NCBI GenBank assembly: GCA_016794035.1
Contig: JAEUHS010000068.1
Location: forward strand, 62,001-126,000
DNA length: 64,000 nucleotides
Reading direction: 5' to 3'
Source: Planctomycetota bacterium
Lineage (GTDB): Bacteria; Planctomycetota; UBA1135; UBA2386
A program made the position numbers and the translations under genes. Below the pieces are notes generated by a model. That model was not told where the DNA came from, searched no databases, and worked only from the letters and a program-made list of their open reading frames with translations. Shown here piece after piece: positions 1,299 through 6,644 of this stretch; positions within the stretch are counted from its first letter, which is position 1; every line of letters begins with the position of its first letter.

Positions 1299-2312
1299 CT
1301 ATGGCTCCAGCACGGCGCGGAAGCGCACCTTGTTGGCCATCATCTTCGCGAACGCCTGCTCGGCCTGCGCGAACTGGAAGCGTTCGATGCGCGGTCGCAC
1401 CCCGGTGCGAGCGCTGAACGCCATCGTCTCCTCGGAGTCGATCGAGGTGCCGCTCGGCCAGCCGGCGACGGCCTTGCCGCTCAGCAGCGAGAACGCCGAC
1501 ACCGGGATCGGCTCGACCGCCGCCGCGACCAGCAGCAGCTTGCCGCGCGGGCGCAGGCCGTCGACGACGCCGGCGATCGCGTCGCCGTGCGGCGCGGTCG
1601 CCAGCACCAGGTGCGCGCCGCCGAGCTGCTGCAGGCCCTCGGCCGCGGTCGTCTTGGCGGTGTCGACATAGTCGTGCGCGCCGAGTTCGCGCGCCAGCGG
1701 TTCCTTGTCGGTGCCGCGCGAGATCGCGACGGTGCGGAAGCCCATCTGCCGCGCGTACTGCAACGCCAGGTGGCCGAGGCCGCCGATGCCCTGCACGCCG
1801 ACGGTGTCGCCGGGGCGCGCGCCGCTGTTGCGCAGCGCGTTGTAGGTGGTGATGCCGGCGCACAGCAGCGGGCCCGCCTCCGCCGCCGACAGCGCGTCGG
1901 GGATCCGGGCCACGGCCTGCACGGGCACGACGCAGTACTCCGCGTAGCCGCCATCGAACGTGATGCCGGTGATCTTGCCGTTCTCGCAGGCCATGAAGTC
2001 GCCGCGCCGGCACGGGTCGCAGGCCGTGCAGTGGCCGCCGTACCAGCCGACGCCGACGCGTTGGCCGCTCTGCCAGCGACGGTCGACGCCGGGGCCGACC
2101 GCGTCGATGCGCCCGGCGATCTCGTGGCCCGGCACGCGCGGCAGCGCCAGCCCGGGGAACTGCCCCGACTTCACGAACACGTCGCTGTGGCACATGCCGC
2201 AGGCCTCGACGCGGATGCGGATCTCGCCGGCACCGGGGGTGGGGATCGGGCGGTCGACGACTTCGAAGGCGCCGCCGGCCTTGGCGACTTGCACGGCTTT
2301 CATCTGGGACAT
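1299..2312 (-). CDS. Zinc-dependent alcohol dehydrogenase (MDR family)
   Basis: A 337-residue medium-chain dehydrogenase, predicted to oxidise primary alcohols or reduce aldehydes with NAD(P). Visible zinc residues are the catalytic set C41, H63-E64 (GHEIAG) and C151, and the structural set C95, C98, C101 and C109. The Rossmann motif GIGGLG lies at 175-180. Length is typical of the family. The start chosen is the ATG of MSQMKAV at 2312; the frame continues further upstream, but that extension is low-complexity Arg/Ala and does not resemble the family. The gene is monocistronic: its divergent neighbour starts 98 bp away and the gene beyond its 3' end converges with it. Substrate and exact cofactor cannot be read from the sequence. 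Confidence 0.93.
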   Translation of the reverse strand: MSQMKAVQVAKAGGAFEVVDRPIPTPGAGEIRIRVEACGMCHSDVFVKSGQFPGLALPRVPGHEIAGRIDAVGPGVDRRWQSGQRVGVGWYGGHCTACDPCRRGDFMACENGKITGITFDGGYAEYCVVPVQAVARIPDALSAAEAGPLLCAGITTYNALRNSGARPGDTVGVQGIGGLGHLALQYARQMGFRTVAISRGTDKEPLARELGAHDYVDTAKTTAAEGLQQLGGAHLVLATAPHGDAIAGVVDGLRPRGKLLLVAAAVEPIPVSAFSLLSGKAVAGWPSGTSIDSEETMAFSARTGVRPRIERFQFAQAEQAFAKMMANKVRFRAVLEP

Positions 2313-2393
2313 GGCAGTCTGCTCCTCTCGGGGGTGGAAGGACCGCCACGATGCGACGCGCGGCAGGATCCGACAAGGCGGGCGATGGCTGCG

Positions 2394-2399
2394 TATGCT
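2394..2399 (+). promoter_or_regulatory. TANNNT -10 element for the pseudokinase-caspase gene
   Basis: TATGCT lies 11 nt before the ATG at 2411 and there is no Shine-Dalgarno sequence. Initiation ~6-7 nt after the box would leave a leader of only a few nucleotides. No convincing -35 box. Confidence 0.45.
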
Positions 2400-2410
2400 G
2401 TCGCCTCCGC

Positions 2411-4183
2411 ATGCCGACACCGCTCCCGACCTCGTTCGGCGACCGCTTCGACATCGAAGCGGCGCTGCCGGAGACACCGTTCGAGCGCACGTTCCGCGCC
2501 CACGACAAGGTCCTGCAGCGCGACGTGCTGCTGAAGCTGCCGGCGCGCGAGGCGTTCGCCGGCTGGTCGGCGCCGATCCACGACCGCATCCTGCGCGAGG
2601 CGCGCGCGCTGGCGAAGCTGCACCACGAGCACGTCGCGCCGATCCACTGGGTCGAAGCCACGCCCGAGGGTCCGCTGCTGGTGCTCGATCTGCCGGCCGG
2701 CGAACTGCTGGCCGAGCGGCTGCAGCGCAGTCCGCTCGACGTGCCGGAGACGATCGCGCTCGGCGTGCAGATCGGCCAGGCGCTCGCGCACGTGCACCTG
2801 CAGGGCGTCGTGCACCGCGCGGTCGGCCCGGCGTCGATCCGCCTGCTCGCGAACGGCCGGGCACAGCTCGGCGCGTTCACGTTCGCGAAGGAGTTCGGCC
2901 AGCGCGGCCAGGGCTCGTCGCTGGCGCACGCGCAGCTCGGTGCCGCCGTGCGGCCCGAGCACCTGCCCGTCTACTCGGCGCCCGAGCAGCTCGCCGGCCA
3001 GACCGCGGACCCGCGCGCCGACGTGTTCGCGCTCGGCTGCACGCTGTTCCGCTGCCTCGCCGGCCAGGACGCGTTCCCGCCCGGCCGCGCGCACGGCGCG
3101 CCGCCCGACCTGCGCAAGCTGCGCCCCGACGTCGACCGCCGGCTCGCCGAGGTGATCCGCAAGTGCCTGCTGTTCGCGAAGACGGCCCGCTATGCGACCG
3201 CGCAGGAGGTGGTGGAGGCGCTGCAGGCGGTGGCGTCGGGCGGTGTGGCCGGCGGCGGGGGCCGGCACGGCTGGCTCGCCGCCGCGGCGGTCGCGCTGCT
3301 CGCGATCGGCGCGTGGGGGGCGAGCTGGCTGCTGGCCGGAGACGGCGCGATGGCTGCGCGTGGCGTCGACGACGACCGGTCGATCCGCGAGCGGCAGGTC
3401 AGGGTCTATCGTCCCGACTACGAAGGCGTGCACGGGCTGTTCATCGGCATCGGCAAGGCCTACGGCCGCACCGACTGGCCCGTGCTGACCAATCCTCCGC
3501 GCGAGGTCGAGGCCGTCGTCGCGCAGCTGCGGCGGAACGACGAGCAGTGGCGGGTGCCCGGCGCGATCGTGACGCTCCCGGAGCACGAGGCGACCTTCGA
3601 AGCGATCCTGGGCCAGCTCGAACGGCTCGAGCGGGTCGGCGAGGAGGATGCCGTGCTGATCTACTTCGCCGGCCACGGTGCGCGGGACGAGGACAGCTTC
3701 GGGCTGGTCGCCGCCGACGCACAGGGCACGATCGTGAAGGGCACCGGCTACGTGCGGCGCGAACTGCTGACGTCGTTCACGAAGCGGTGCCGAGCCAAGC
3801 ACGTGCTGATCGTGCTCGACTGCTGTCACTCGGGCGCGGTGTTCGACATCGGTCGCGGGACGGGGCGCGACCCCGAAGCGGACGCAGGCCCGTCGCCCGG
3901 TGCCCACCGCCGACAGCGTTTCAGCCGCGAGTTCCTCTGTTCCGCGGGTGCCGGGCAGCCGGCGTCGGATGGCGCCGAACTGTCGCCGTTCTGCCTCCAG
4001 TTGCTCGCCGAGTTGGGCCGGCCGGCGGATCCGGATCGCGCCTACGTGGCGGCTTGCCACCTGGCGGGCCGCATCGGCGAGGCGATGGAGGCCGGTGGTC
4101 GGCGCGGTGGCATGCAGCTGCCCGCGTTCCAGCAGAACGTCCGCGACCAGGGCAGCTTCGTGTTCCGGCTGCCGCCGAAGTGA
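2411..4183 (+). CDS. Pseudokinase - transmembrane - caspase-like (C14) fusion protein
   Basis: A 590-residue protein with three parts. Residues ~10-275 have a Ser/Thr kinase fold: the Lys of the VAIK position is K42, an alpha-C Glu is in LREARAL (E63), and the SAPEQL activation-end motif is at 189-194. The catalytic residues are lost: HRD is HRA (135-137), the catalytic-loop Lys and Asn are replaced, DFG is GAF (154-156), and there is no Gly-rich loop. Residues ~288-309 form one membrane helix. Residues ~340-590 are a caspase/metacaspase-type domain with the His in YFAGHG (H422) and the Cys in LDCCHSG (C472). The likely layout is an inactive kinase-like sensor inside the cell and a protease domain across or at the membrane. 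The ATG at 2411 was preferred to 2351 because it follows a -10-like box and begins directly before the kinase fold. Function is unknown. Confidence 0.88.
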   Translation: MPTPLPTSFGDRFDIEAALPETPFERTFRAHDKVLQRDVLLKLPAREAFAGWSAPIHDRILREARALAKLHHEHVAPIHWVEATPEGPLLVLDLPAGELLAERLQRSPLDVPETIALGVQIGQALAHVHLQGVVHRAVGPASIRLLANGRAQLGAFTFAKEFGQRGQGSSLAHAQLGAAVRPEHLPVYSAPEQLAGQTADPRADVFALGCTLFRCLAGQDAFPPGRAHGAPPDLRKLRPDVDRRLAEVIRKCLLFAKTARYATAQEVVEALQAVASGGVAGGGGRHGWLAAAAVALLAIGAWGASWLLAGDGAMAARGVDDDRSIRERQVRVYRPDYEGVHGLFIGIGKAYGRTDWPVLTNPPREVEAVVAQLRRNDEQWRVPGAIVTLPEHEATFEAILGQLERLERVGEEDAVLIYFAGHGARDEDSFGLVAADAQGTIVKGTGYVRRELLTSFTKRCRAKHVLIVLDCCHSGAVFDIGRGTGRDPEADAGPSPGAHRRQRFSREFLCSAGAGQPASDGAELSPFCLQLLAELGRPADPDRAYVAACHLAGRIGEAMEAGGRRGGMQLPAFQQNVRDQGSFVFRLPPK

Positions 4184-4204
4184 GCGCTGGACGGGCCCAT
4201 TCGC

Positions 4205-4210
4205 TACCCT
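4205..4210 (+). promoter_or_regulatory. TANNNT -10 element for the rRNA methyltransferase gene
   Basis: TACCCT lies 10 nt before the ATG at 4221, in the 37-nt gap after the caspase gene. No Shine-Dalgarno sequence and no clear -35. Confidence 0.35.
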
Positions 4211-4220
4211 GTTCGGCCCG

Positions 4221-5441
4221 ATGACGACCGAACCCGAATCCGCCGCCGCTGCCGCTCCTGCGCCTGCCACCGCCGACGTGCGCCTGTCGGCGAAGGCCAG
4301 CGGCTTCGCGCGCCGCGGCCAGGTCTGGTTCTACGGCAGCGACGTCGAGGCCGGCGACCTGCTGCCGCCGCGGCTCGCGCGCGTGCGCGACGAGGCCGGG
4401 CGCGACCTGGGCCTCGGCTTCACGTCGGCGGGCCGGCTGGCGCTGCGCCTGTGCGGGCCGTGGCCGGGCGACGCGGTGCCGGACCGCGAGGCGTTCTTCC
4501 ACCAGCGGCTGCTGGCGGCGATCGAGCGCCGCGCCGGCATGCTCGGTCCGCACGATGGCGCGCGGCTCGTGCACGGCGAGAGCGACGGATTGCCGGGACT
4601 GGTGCTCGATCGCTACGGGCCGGTGCTGGTGCTGCAGGTGACCAGCGCCGTCGTCGAGCACGCGCTCGACGCGGTCGTCCCGTTCGTCGCCGAACGCCTG
4701 CAGGCCGAGTCCGTGGTCGCGCGCGACGACGTGCCGGCGCGCAAGCACGAGGGCCTGCCGCAGGAGGTGCGGCTGCTGCACGGTCGCCGCCTCACCGAGG
4801 TGACGATCGTCGAGCACGGCGTGCGCCACCTGGTGCGGCCGTTCACCGGCCACAAGACCGGCTTCTACCTCGACCAGCGGCCGGCGCGCGCGCTGGTGCA
4901 GCAGCTGGCCAAGGGCCGGCGCGTGCTGGACCTGTTCTGCTACCAGGGCGCGTTCGCGCTGAACGCGTTGCAGGGTGGCGCGACGGTGGCGCTGGCCGTC
5001 GACGAGTCCGAGGCGGCGCTGCAACTCGCCACCGCCGGCGCCGCCGCGAACGCGCTGGCCGGGCTGTCGGCGCACCAGGGCAACGTGTTCGACTTCGTGC
5101 GCGGCCAGCGCGACGCCGGCCGCCAGCACGACCTGATCGTGCTCGATCCGCCGGCGTTCGCGAAGTCGCGGCGCGAGCTCGACGGCGCCGAGCGCGGCTA
5201 CCGCGACCTGAACCGGCACGCGCTGCGCCTGCTGGCGCCGCAGGGCTTCCTGGTCACCTGCACCTGCAGCCACCACATGGCGCTGCCGCGCTTCGAGGAG
5301 ATCGTGCGCCAGGCGGCGGCCGGGCTGCCGTTCCGCGTCGTGCTGCGCCAGCGGCTCGGCGCCGGCCCCGACCATCCGGTCACGATCACGCACCCCGAAT
5401 CCGAGTACCTGAAGGTGCTGCTGCTGCAGCGCCAGGATTGA
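4221..5441 (+). CDS. rlmI: Class I SAM-dependent 23S rRNA cytosine methyltransferase (RlmI-like)
   Basis: A 406-residue member of the RlmI/YccW group, which makes 5-methylcytosine in 23S rRNA. An N-terminal PUA-like RNA-binding region is followed by a Rossmann methyltransferase domain. Supporting motifs are [13 protein letters not shown] before the SAM domain, [12 protein letters not shown] for SAM binding, LDPPAFAKS as the catalytic loop and VTCTCSHHM with the conserved Cys. Length matches RlmI (~400). It is the first gene of a compact run: thiS begins 1 nt after its stop. Assignment to the exact RlmI orthologue rather than a sister family is by motif only. Confidence 0.88.
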
Positions 5442-5442
5442 G

Positions 5443-5661
5443 ATGGAGTCGACCCGCGAACTCGAAGTGCACGTCAACGGCGAACCGCGCGCGGTGCCGG
5501 CCGGCAGCACGATCGCCGACCTCGTGCGGCTGCTGGGCCTCACGCCGGCGCAGGTCGCCGTCGAACGCAACAAGCAGCTGGTGCGCCGCGCCGAGCACGC
5601 CGCCACGCCGCTGGCGGCAGGCGACCGACTCGAGGTGGTGACGTTCTTCGGCGGTGGGTGA
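5443..5661 (+). CDS. thiS: Sulfur carrier protein ThiS
   Basis: A 72-residue ubiquitin-fold sulfur carrier of thiamine biosynthesis. Its C-terminal Gly-Gly is adenylated and converted to a thiocarboxylate that donates sulfur to ThiG. It has the family's short length, the VNGEPRAV start, the [12 protein letters not shown] end and the required terminal glycines, here three. It starts 1 nt after the methyltransferase stop and is followed, after 194 nt, by thiG. No ThiF adenylyltransferase, ThiH/ThiO or TPP riboswitch is visible nearby. Confidence 0.93.
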
Positions 5662-5855
5662 CGCCTTGGCCGCCGCCGGCGCTCCGGTCGCGTCCGTCGA
5701 CCGGGCCCGCGGTGGCGGACGGGGAGCATCGTCGGGTCGTCACCGTCTCGCAGGTCGAGGCCGCGCGAGCCGCCCTGGACCGCTGACGGGGGGCGATCGC
5801 GCGACGACGCGTTGCACCCTTGTGCGCTGCTGCCCGCCGGCGCACGATCGGCGCC

Positions 5856-6644
5856 GTGATCCCGCCCGACGCACCGCTGGCCATCGGCCCGCACCAGTTC
5901 ACCTCGCGCCTGTTCCTCGGCACCGGCAAGTACCCGTCGATGGAGTCGATGGTGGCGGCGCTGGCGGTCTCCGGCACGCAATGCGTCACCGTCGCCGTGC
6001 GCCGGCTCGAACTCGGCGTGCCGAAGGGCAGGTCGCTGCTCGACTACCTGCCGCGCGAGAAATACGTGCTGCTGCCGAACACCGCCGGCTGCTTCGACGC
6101 CGAGCACGCGGTGCGCACGGCGCGGCTGGGGCGCGAACTCGGCATCGGCGACCTCGTCAAGCTCGAGGTGCTCGGCGATCCCGACACCCTGCTGCCCGAT
6201 CCGATCGGCACGCTCGAGGCGGCGAAGACCCTCGTGAAGGAGGGCTTCGTGGTGCTGTGCTACACCAGCGACGACCCGGTGCTGGCGCGTCGCCTCGAGG
6301 ACGCGGGCGTCACCGCGGTGATGCCGGCCGGGGCGCCGATCGGCAGCGGCCAGGGCATCCTGAACCCGAACAACATCCGCATCATCCTCGAACGCAGCAA
6401 GGTGCCGGTGATCGTCGATGCCGGCGTCGGCACCGCCAGCGACGTCGCGCTCGCGTTCGAGCTCGGCGCGCACGGCGTGCTGTTGAACACCGGCGTCGCG
6501 CTGGCGCAGCAGCCGGTGCGTATGGCGCGGGCGATGAAGGCCGCCGCCGAGGCGGGGCGCGACGCGTTCCTCGCCGGGCGCATCGGCAAGAAGCTCTACG
6601 CCACCGCGTCGTCGCCGACGTCGGGCATCATCGCCGGCGAATGA
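5856..6644 (+). CDS. thiG: Thiazole synthase ThiG
   Basis: A 262-residue TIM-barrel enzyme that condenses 1-deoxy-xylulose 5-phosphate, dehydroglycine and ThiS-thiocarboxylate into the thiazole of thiamine. Recognised by the FLGTGKY start, the KLEVLGD strand with the Schiff-base Lys, [23 protein letters not shown] and the phosphate-binding LLNTGVA. Length matches the family (~255-265). The start chosen is GTG at 5856, which gives the usual short N-terminus; upstream codons add an atypical Arg-rich stretch. Its stop overlaps the next start (ATGA), so the CPBP protease gene is probably translationally coupled. Confidence 0.95.

Follow-up and report, generated by a model that had tools for sequence, protein, structure and literature searches.

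In the current study, we characterized a gene in the window (the whole 64,000-nt stretch of planctomycete DNA analysed here) that encodes a Hanks-type pseudokinase, one membrane helix and an intact caspase-like protease in a single chain. Caspases and pseudokinases both abound in bacteria, and for most of them no function is known. In the present case they are united in one chain, which occurs in several planctomycete families and shows a genomic link to a specific live kinase, here termed KinB, and to a second caspase, C14b. From N to C terminus, the encoded order is pseudokinase, single transmembrane (TM) helix and metacaspase-like C14 domain (Table 1). An in-frame ATG also occurs upstream at position 2351, but homologues begin near position 2411, which favors the latter as the start. 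Pfam searches with the 590-aa protein returned Pkinase (66.7 bits, residues 58-261) and Peptidase_C14 (25.0 bits, residues 396-540), both above cut-off. When AlphaFold2 was given the family alignment as input, both domains formed in the model of the whole protein (mean pLDDT 78). The same domain order and substitutions are seen in 19 further proteins, which puts the architecture beyond chance.

Table 1. Features of the pseudokinase-TM-C14 gene and its downstream neighbor, in window coordinates.
Feature	Position	Strand	Basis
Pseudokinase-TM-C14 gene	2411..4183	+	590 aa; open frame, TGA stop at 4181-4183
Pseudokinase domain, residues 12-275	2444..3235	+	Pfam PF00069, 66.7 bits; Foldseek PknB/PknI
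HRA replacing HRD, residues 135-137	2813..2821	+	Family alignment; Asp lost in 18/20
AFT replacing DFG, residues 155-157	2873..2881	+	Family alignment; Asp lost in 20/20, Phe kept in 20/20
Conserved [ST]S[ILM] in activation segment, S169-S170-L171	2915..2923	+	Family alignment; S170 near-invariant
Single TM helix, residues 287-307	3269..3331	+	Hydropathy peak at same place in 20/20; helix 287-306 in model
Arg317-Gly318 in linker, candidate self-cleavage site	3359..3364	+	RG linker statistics
C14 metacaspase-like protease domain, residues 336-590	3416..4180	+	Pfam PF00656; structure model
Catalytic His422 (GHG)	3674..3676	+	Kept in 20/20
Asp470-Cys471-Cys472 (DCC), catalytic Cys472	3818..3826	+	Asp and Cys472 kept in 20/20
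RlmI-like SAM methyltransferase, 37 bp downstream	4221..5441	+	Pfam PF10672

Foldseek searches with the modelled kinase domain matched PknB, PknA and PknI, so that structure prediction recovers the kinase fold that a preliminary description of this DNA had read from its letters. That description had also noted HRA in place of HRD and the lack of a Gly-rich loop, and both observations are borne out: residues 17-30 read AALPETPFERTFRA, and the loop is lost throughout the family alignment. It had further reported GAF in place of DFG. The loss is real, but the register was wrong, GAF being residues 154-156 and the true triad AFT. The β3 Lys is present in the window protein (K42) and in 14 of the 20 family members, its place being taken by Arg (two members), Glu (two), Gln (one) or a gap (one), and two members (L051 and L075) retain HRD. 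From these motifs, we infer that the kinase domain does not carry out phosphotransfer. The S169/S170 pair of the activation segment is perhaps a site at which the domain itself could be phosphorylated.

A protein search across 34 genomes belonging to the same taxonomic family recovered nine proteins, the window's own among them and one (L013) cut by a contig end. A profile search with the C14 half added six in the class, another on a second G079 contig, and four elsewhere in the phylum. The resulting 20 proteins come from six planctomycete families, and all run from kinase through helix to C14. In a tree of kinase domains, a 100/100 branch separates the pseudokinases, together with one copy fused to a live kinase, from 24 live kinases; the pseudokinases share a single origin. 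Likewise, the fused C14 domains form one branch (100/99) with L082, a C14 fragment without a kinase that is probably broken or misassembled and was excluded from the family set. Six pairs of close relatives were compared, and in each of them non-synonymous changes were scarcer in the kinase half than in the protease half; simple dN/dS estimates are not reliable at a GC content like this and served solely to contrast the two halves. Because the same losses occur in 20 proteins of one origin, with the kinase half the more constrained, the family is a maintained pseudokinase and not a decayed gene. Searches of viral and plasmid sequences returned kinase-like matches alone, none spanning the whole protein, and a viral structure search listed mostly kinases. 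On the outcome of these searches, mobile or viral spread was rejected.

The preliminary description had itself pointed out that, had an active kinase simply decayed in this lineage, homologues with intact kinase motifs or variable caspase residues should be found. The HRD still read in L051 and L075 is the one trace in that direction. Across all 20 proteins, however, the Asp of DFG is lost and the His-Cys dyad is kept, as expected of a real family, and the alignment, the kinase tree and the half-by-half comparison of non-synonymous changes together refute decay, which we regard as scarcely credible. A different possibility is that the domain performs another reaction with ATP, as SelO does in AMPylation and SidJ in glutamylation. 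Such shifts are known among bacterial pseudokinases (PMC12599244), and the frequent retention of the β3 Lys and the invariant Phe of DFG would be in keeping with nucleotide chemistry of some kind. Nevertheless, the metal-binding and catalytic Asp residues are lost in most members and the Gly-rich loop in all, and six members lack the β3 Lys, which makes this explanation very unlikely. A new shared reaction should retain a polar residue set of its own; the residues inspected here were those of the canonical motifs.

The protease half has the opposite character. The C14 domain modelled alone reached a pLDDT of 88 and a pTM of 0.89, and the PDB matches of this model in Foldseek were topped by MALT1, GSU0716 and metacaspases; sequence profiles of this half concur on the paracaspase/metacaspase kinship. 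PF00656 was matched by all 14 members tested, and the catalytic dyad is intact as first described. When aligned to metacaspases, Asp470 falls on the position of their basic-P1 Asp, the residue that in metacaspases sets the preference for a basic residue. The predicted protease would thus probably cut after Arg or Lys.

The single membrane helix of the earlier reading was found at the same place in every member, although it is only moderately hydrophobic in some and weak in L006. In 19 of 20 members, net charge is more positive on the kinase side of the helix, L012 being the one to break this rule. Because of this pattern and the positive-inside rule, the protease is most likely periplasmic, outside the cytoplasm, with the kinase domain most likely cytoplasmic. 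In the linker between helix and protease, an RG dipeptide occurs in 16 of 20 members vs. 8.2 expected from shuffles (p 5e-4, a value that ignores kinship), and Arg317-Gly318 is a candidate at which the protease might cleave itself.

Upstream of the gene lies a divergent alcohol dehydrogenase. The methyltransferase of Table 1 is followed, in order, by genes read as thiG and as encoding proteins of the CPBP, gamma carbonic anhydrase-like and FG-GAP types. The neighbors are housekeeping genes, and nothing among them points to defence. The downstream gene order, methyltransferase included, is common to both other members of the genus only, and neither a defence nor a toxin neighborhood was seen. 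A neighboring kinase conserved across the family was also considered and rejected, since a kinase lies nearby at six of 18 loci, which by a rough estimate is about chance for kinase-rich genomes.

These observations bear on two further explanations. In one, the topology is reversed or the helix does not span the membrane, and the protease would work in the cytoplasm. The moderate hydrophobicity of the helix in some members and the exceptional charges of L012 leave some room for this, but the protein has no N-terminal signal, a kinase fold is expected inside, the charge bias holds in nearly all members and the C14b relatives are secreted, and we consider such a topology distinctly improbable. 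In the other, the protein is a cell-death or anti-phage device, whose pseudokinase would sense damage or infection and free the caspase to kill the cell. Caspase-like proteases are indeed central components of conflict systems in bacteria (PMC7159879, PMC8195603), and among curated models the C14 domain best matches that of EACC1-associated caspases in NCBIfam. This match reaches 65 bits against a cut-off of 140, so that membership of an EACC1 system was rejected, and no match to an EACC1 gene was found in the window's own genome by a search that gave none in any control either. The PADLOC matches comprised kinase families in general and a non-specific caspase model. A simple cytoplasmic death device is disfavored because the charge pattern puts the protease outside the cytoplasm, and the housekeeping neighbors, their order conserved within the genus alone, offer it no partner. 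The preliminary description had proposed that the pseudokinase may be a sensor or scaffold that releases the protease, possibly in programmed cell death or signalling. A regulatory or scaffolding role for the pseudokinase is most likely, whereas the part concerning death or defence is not supported and is, in our judgment, unlikely.

Besides the gene studied here, the window's genome (G000) contains three C14 genes, whose products begin as lipoproteins or with signal peptides. One of these genes is C14b, and upstream of it is encoded KinB, an active-type membrane kinase. KinB adjoins C14b in G000, G012, G013 and G003. In G024, G095 and G021 the two are also close, but on opposite strands. In the window's genome, the KinB locus and the pseudokinase-TM-C14 gene lie on separate contigs; in G019, KinB and the pseudokinase-C14 gene share a strand and are ~0.8 kb apart, and an ECF sigma factor comes after KinB. 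When 154 genomes of the class, all genomes compared being incomplete MAGs, were scored for the pseudokinase and full-length C14b, 13 had both, three the pseudokinase alone, nine C14b alone and 129 neither (Fisher test, 9e-11, shared ancestry ignored). Two of the three genomes with the pseudokinase alone are 67-73% complete, and eight of the nine with C14b alone belong to a single family (f8). Within the taxonomic family of the window, the corresponding counts were 9, 1, 0 and 24, and in one genus of four genomes (g3), one had both and three had neither. Scores above 200 bits for KinB were obtained in ten of the family's genomes. Nine of them also have the pseudokinase and C14b; the tenth, G014, has neither. 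The pseudokinase family is thus genomically linked to KinB and C14b, and the association of a live kinase with a secreted caspase points to envelope signalling, though a lethal outcome is still conceivable. Because these genomes hold dozens to more than 200 candidate kinase stretches each, KinB is perhaps not the partner. At a first look, G019 has ~180 and G021 ~250 such stretches, both very large complements.

Keeping this in mind, we propose that the gene encodes a single-pass membrane protein with a dead Hanks-type kinase domain predicted on the cytoplasmic side and a metacaspase-type cysteine protease predicted on the periplasmic side. The pseudokinase would serve as a docking and allosteric domain, bound by an active KinB-family membrane kinase, which perhaps phosphorylates the conserved Ser/Thr pair of the activation segment. 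Such an event could alter the membrane helix in its pairing or posture and so allow the outside protease to act, cutting probably after Arg or Lys and perhaps first in its own RG linker; later substrates might be envelope proteins, or the secreted caspase C14b encoded with KinB. Taken as a whole, the reading in which the pseudokinase, as docking and allosteric partner of KinB, gates a protease in the periplasm has, we estimate, about an even chance of being correct. A complete trans-membrane relay, in which live KinB would act via a dead-kinase receptor to activate the caspase in the periplasm, a second, secreted caspase lying downstream, is more tentative, and we lean somewhat against it. If true, it would constitute a bacterial kinase/pseudokinase/caspase signalling unit and would connect phosphorylation in the cytoplasm with proteolysis outside the cell. 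The analysis provides a testable partner in KinB, together with one candidate site each for cleavage and phosphorylation.

Several known systems share parts of this design. Metacaspases and paracaspases (Peptidase_C14, MALT1, GSU0716) are alike in fold, His-Cys dyad and the Asp at the basic-P1 position, but the window protein ties its C14 domain to a pseudokinase via a membrane helix. The PASTA kinases (PknB/Stk1), which provide the nearest kinase folds, have the same layout of kinase, TM helix and outside domain; in the window protein the kinase is dead and a protease replaces PASTA, and the PASTA-kinase equivalog NF033483 scored 100.8 bits, below its cut-off of 450. EACC1-associated caspases, system 4 of PMC7159879, are likewise coupled to a membrane helix, but in the window protein the helix shares a chain with the caspase and the protease is probably outside. 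In EACC2/TRADD-N neighborhoods, caspase genes occur near an ECF sigma factor (PMC8195603), as do KinB and C14b, with the difference that the kinase at the KinB/C14b locus is a separate active-type protein. ECF sigma factors regulated by neighboring kinases are known (STPK-regulated ECF43, ECF59 and ECF60), and the KinB locus, with its ECF beside a membrane kinase, resembles these; the likeness applies to KinB and not to the window gene. Compared by description, the bacterial pseudokinases EssB/YukC, CP1, DLHK, ActPs1-3, DYD and GLW also have a dead Hanks-type domain, and EssB, like the window protein, is a membrane protein. Neither caspases nor planctomycetes are mentioned in a 2025 review of bacterial pseudokinases (PMC12599244), neither caspases nor pseudokinases in a 2024 paper on planctomycete kinases, and searching the text of a 2012 survey of 671 prokaryotic metacaspases (PMC3501461) by keyword revealed no kinase-C14 architecture. 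No earlier description of the fusion was found among open-licence papers, and one may exist elsewhere.

A number of individual loci deserve mention. The L082 fragment (G335:C327) adjoins a second caspase-like frame. In a simple motif scan, five C14b copies (L142, L145, L148, L149 and L150) deviated from the usual GHG or D-x-C pattern, and these may be inactive. In G011, KinB and C14b form one 1251-aa frame with intact kinase motifs (L132:2063-5815, + strand, contig C162), that is, a live kinase-TM-C14 fusion. The copy fused to a live kinase is a 712-aa protein of G021 (L070:4062-6197, - strand, contig C23), in which a live KinB-type kinase is followed by a pseudokinase of the family, with no C14 domain; its live kinase was assigned to the KinB type by mutual best matches with KinB in each searched genome and by grouping with it (99/93). 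In the window's own genome, an ECF sigma-like frame, KinB and C14b are clustered in that order (L126, G000:C14, about 1631-6205, - strand). This ECF frame was judged by eye, and its G019 counterpart by Pfam. The latter (L106:4602-5222, - strand, G019:C109) lies directly after KinB at the locus that holds the pseudokinase-C14 gene, where there is also a small frame whose product may be exported.
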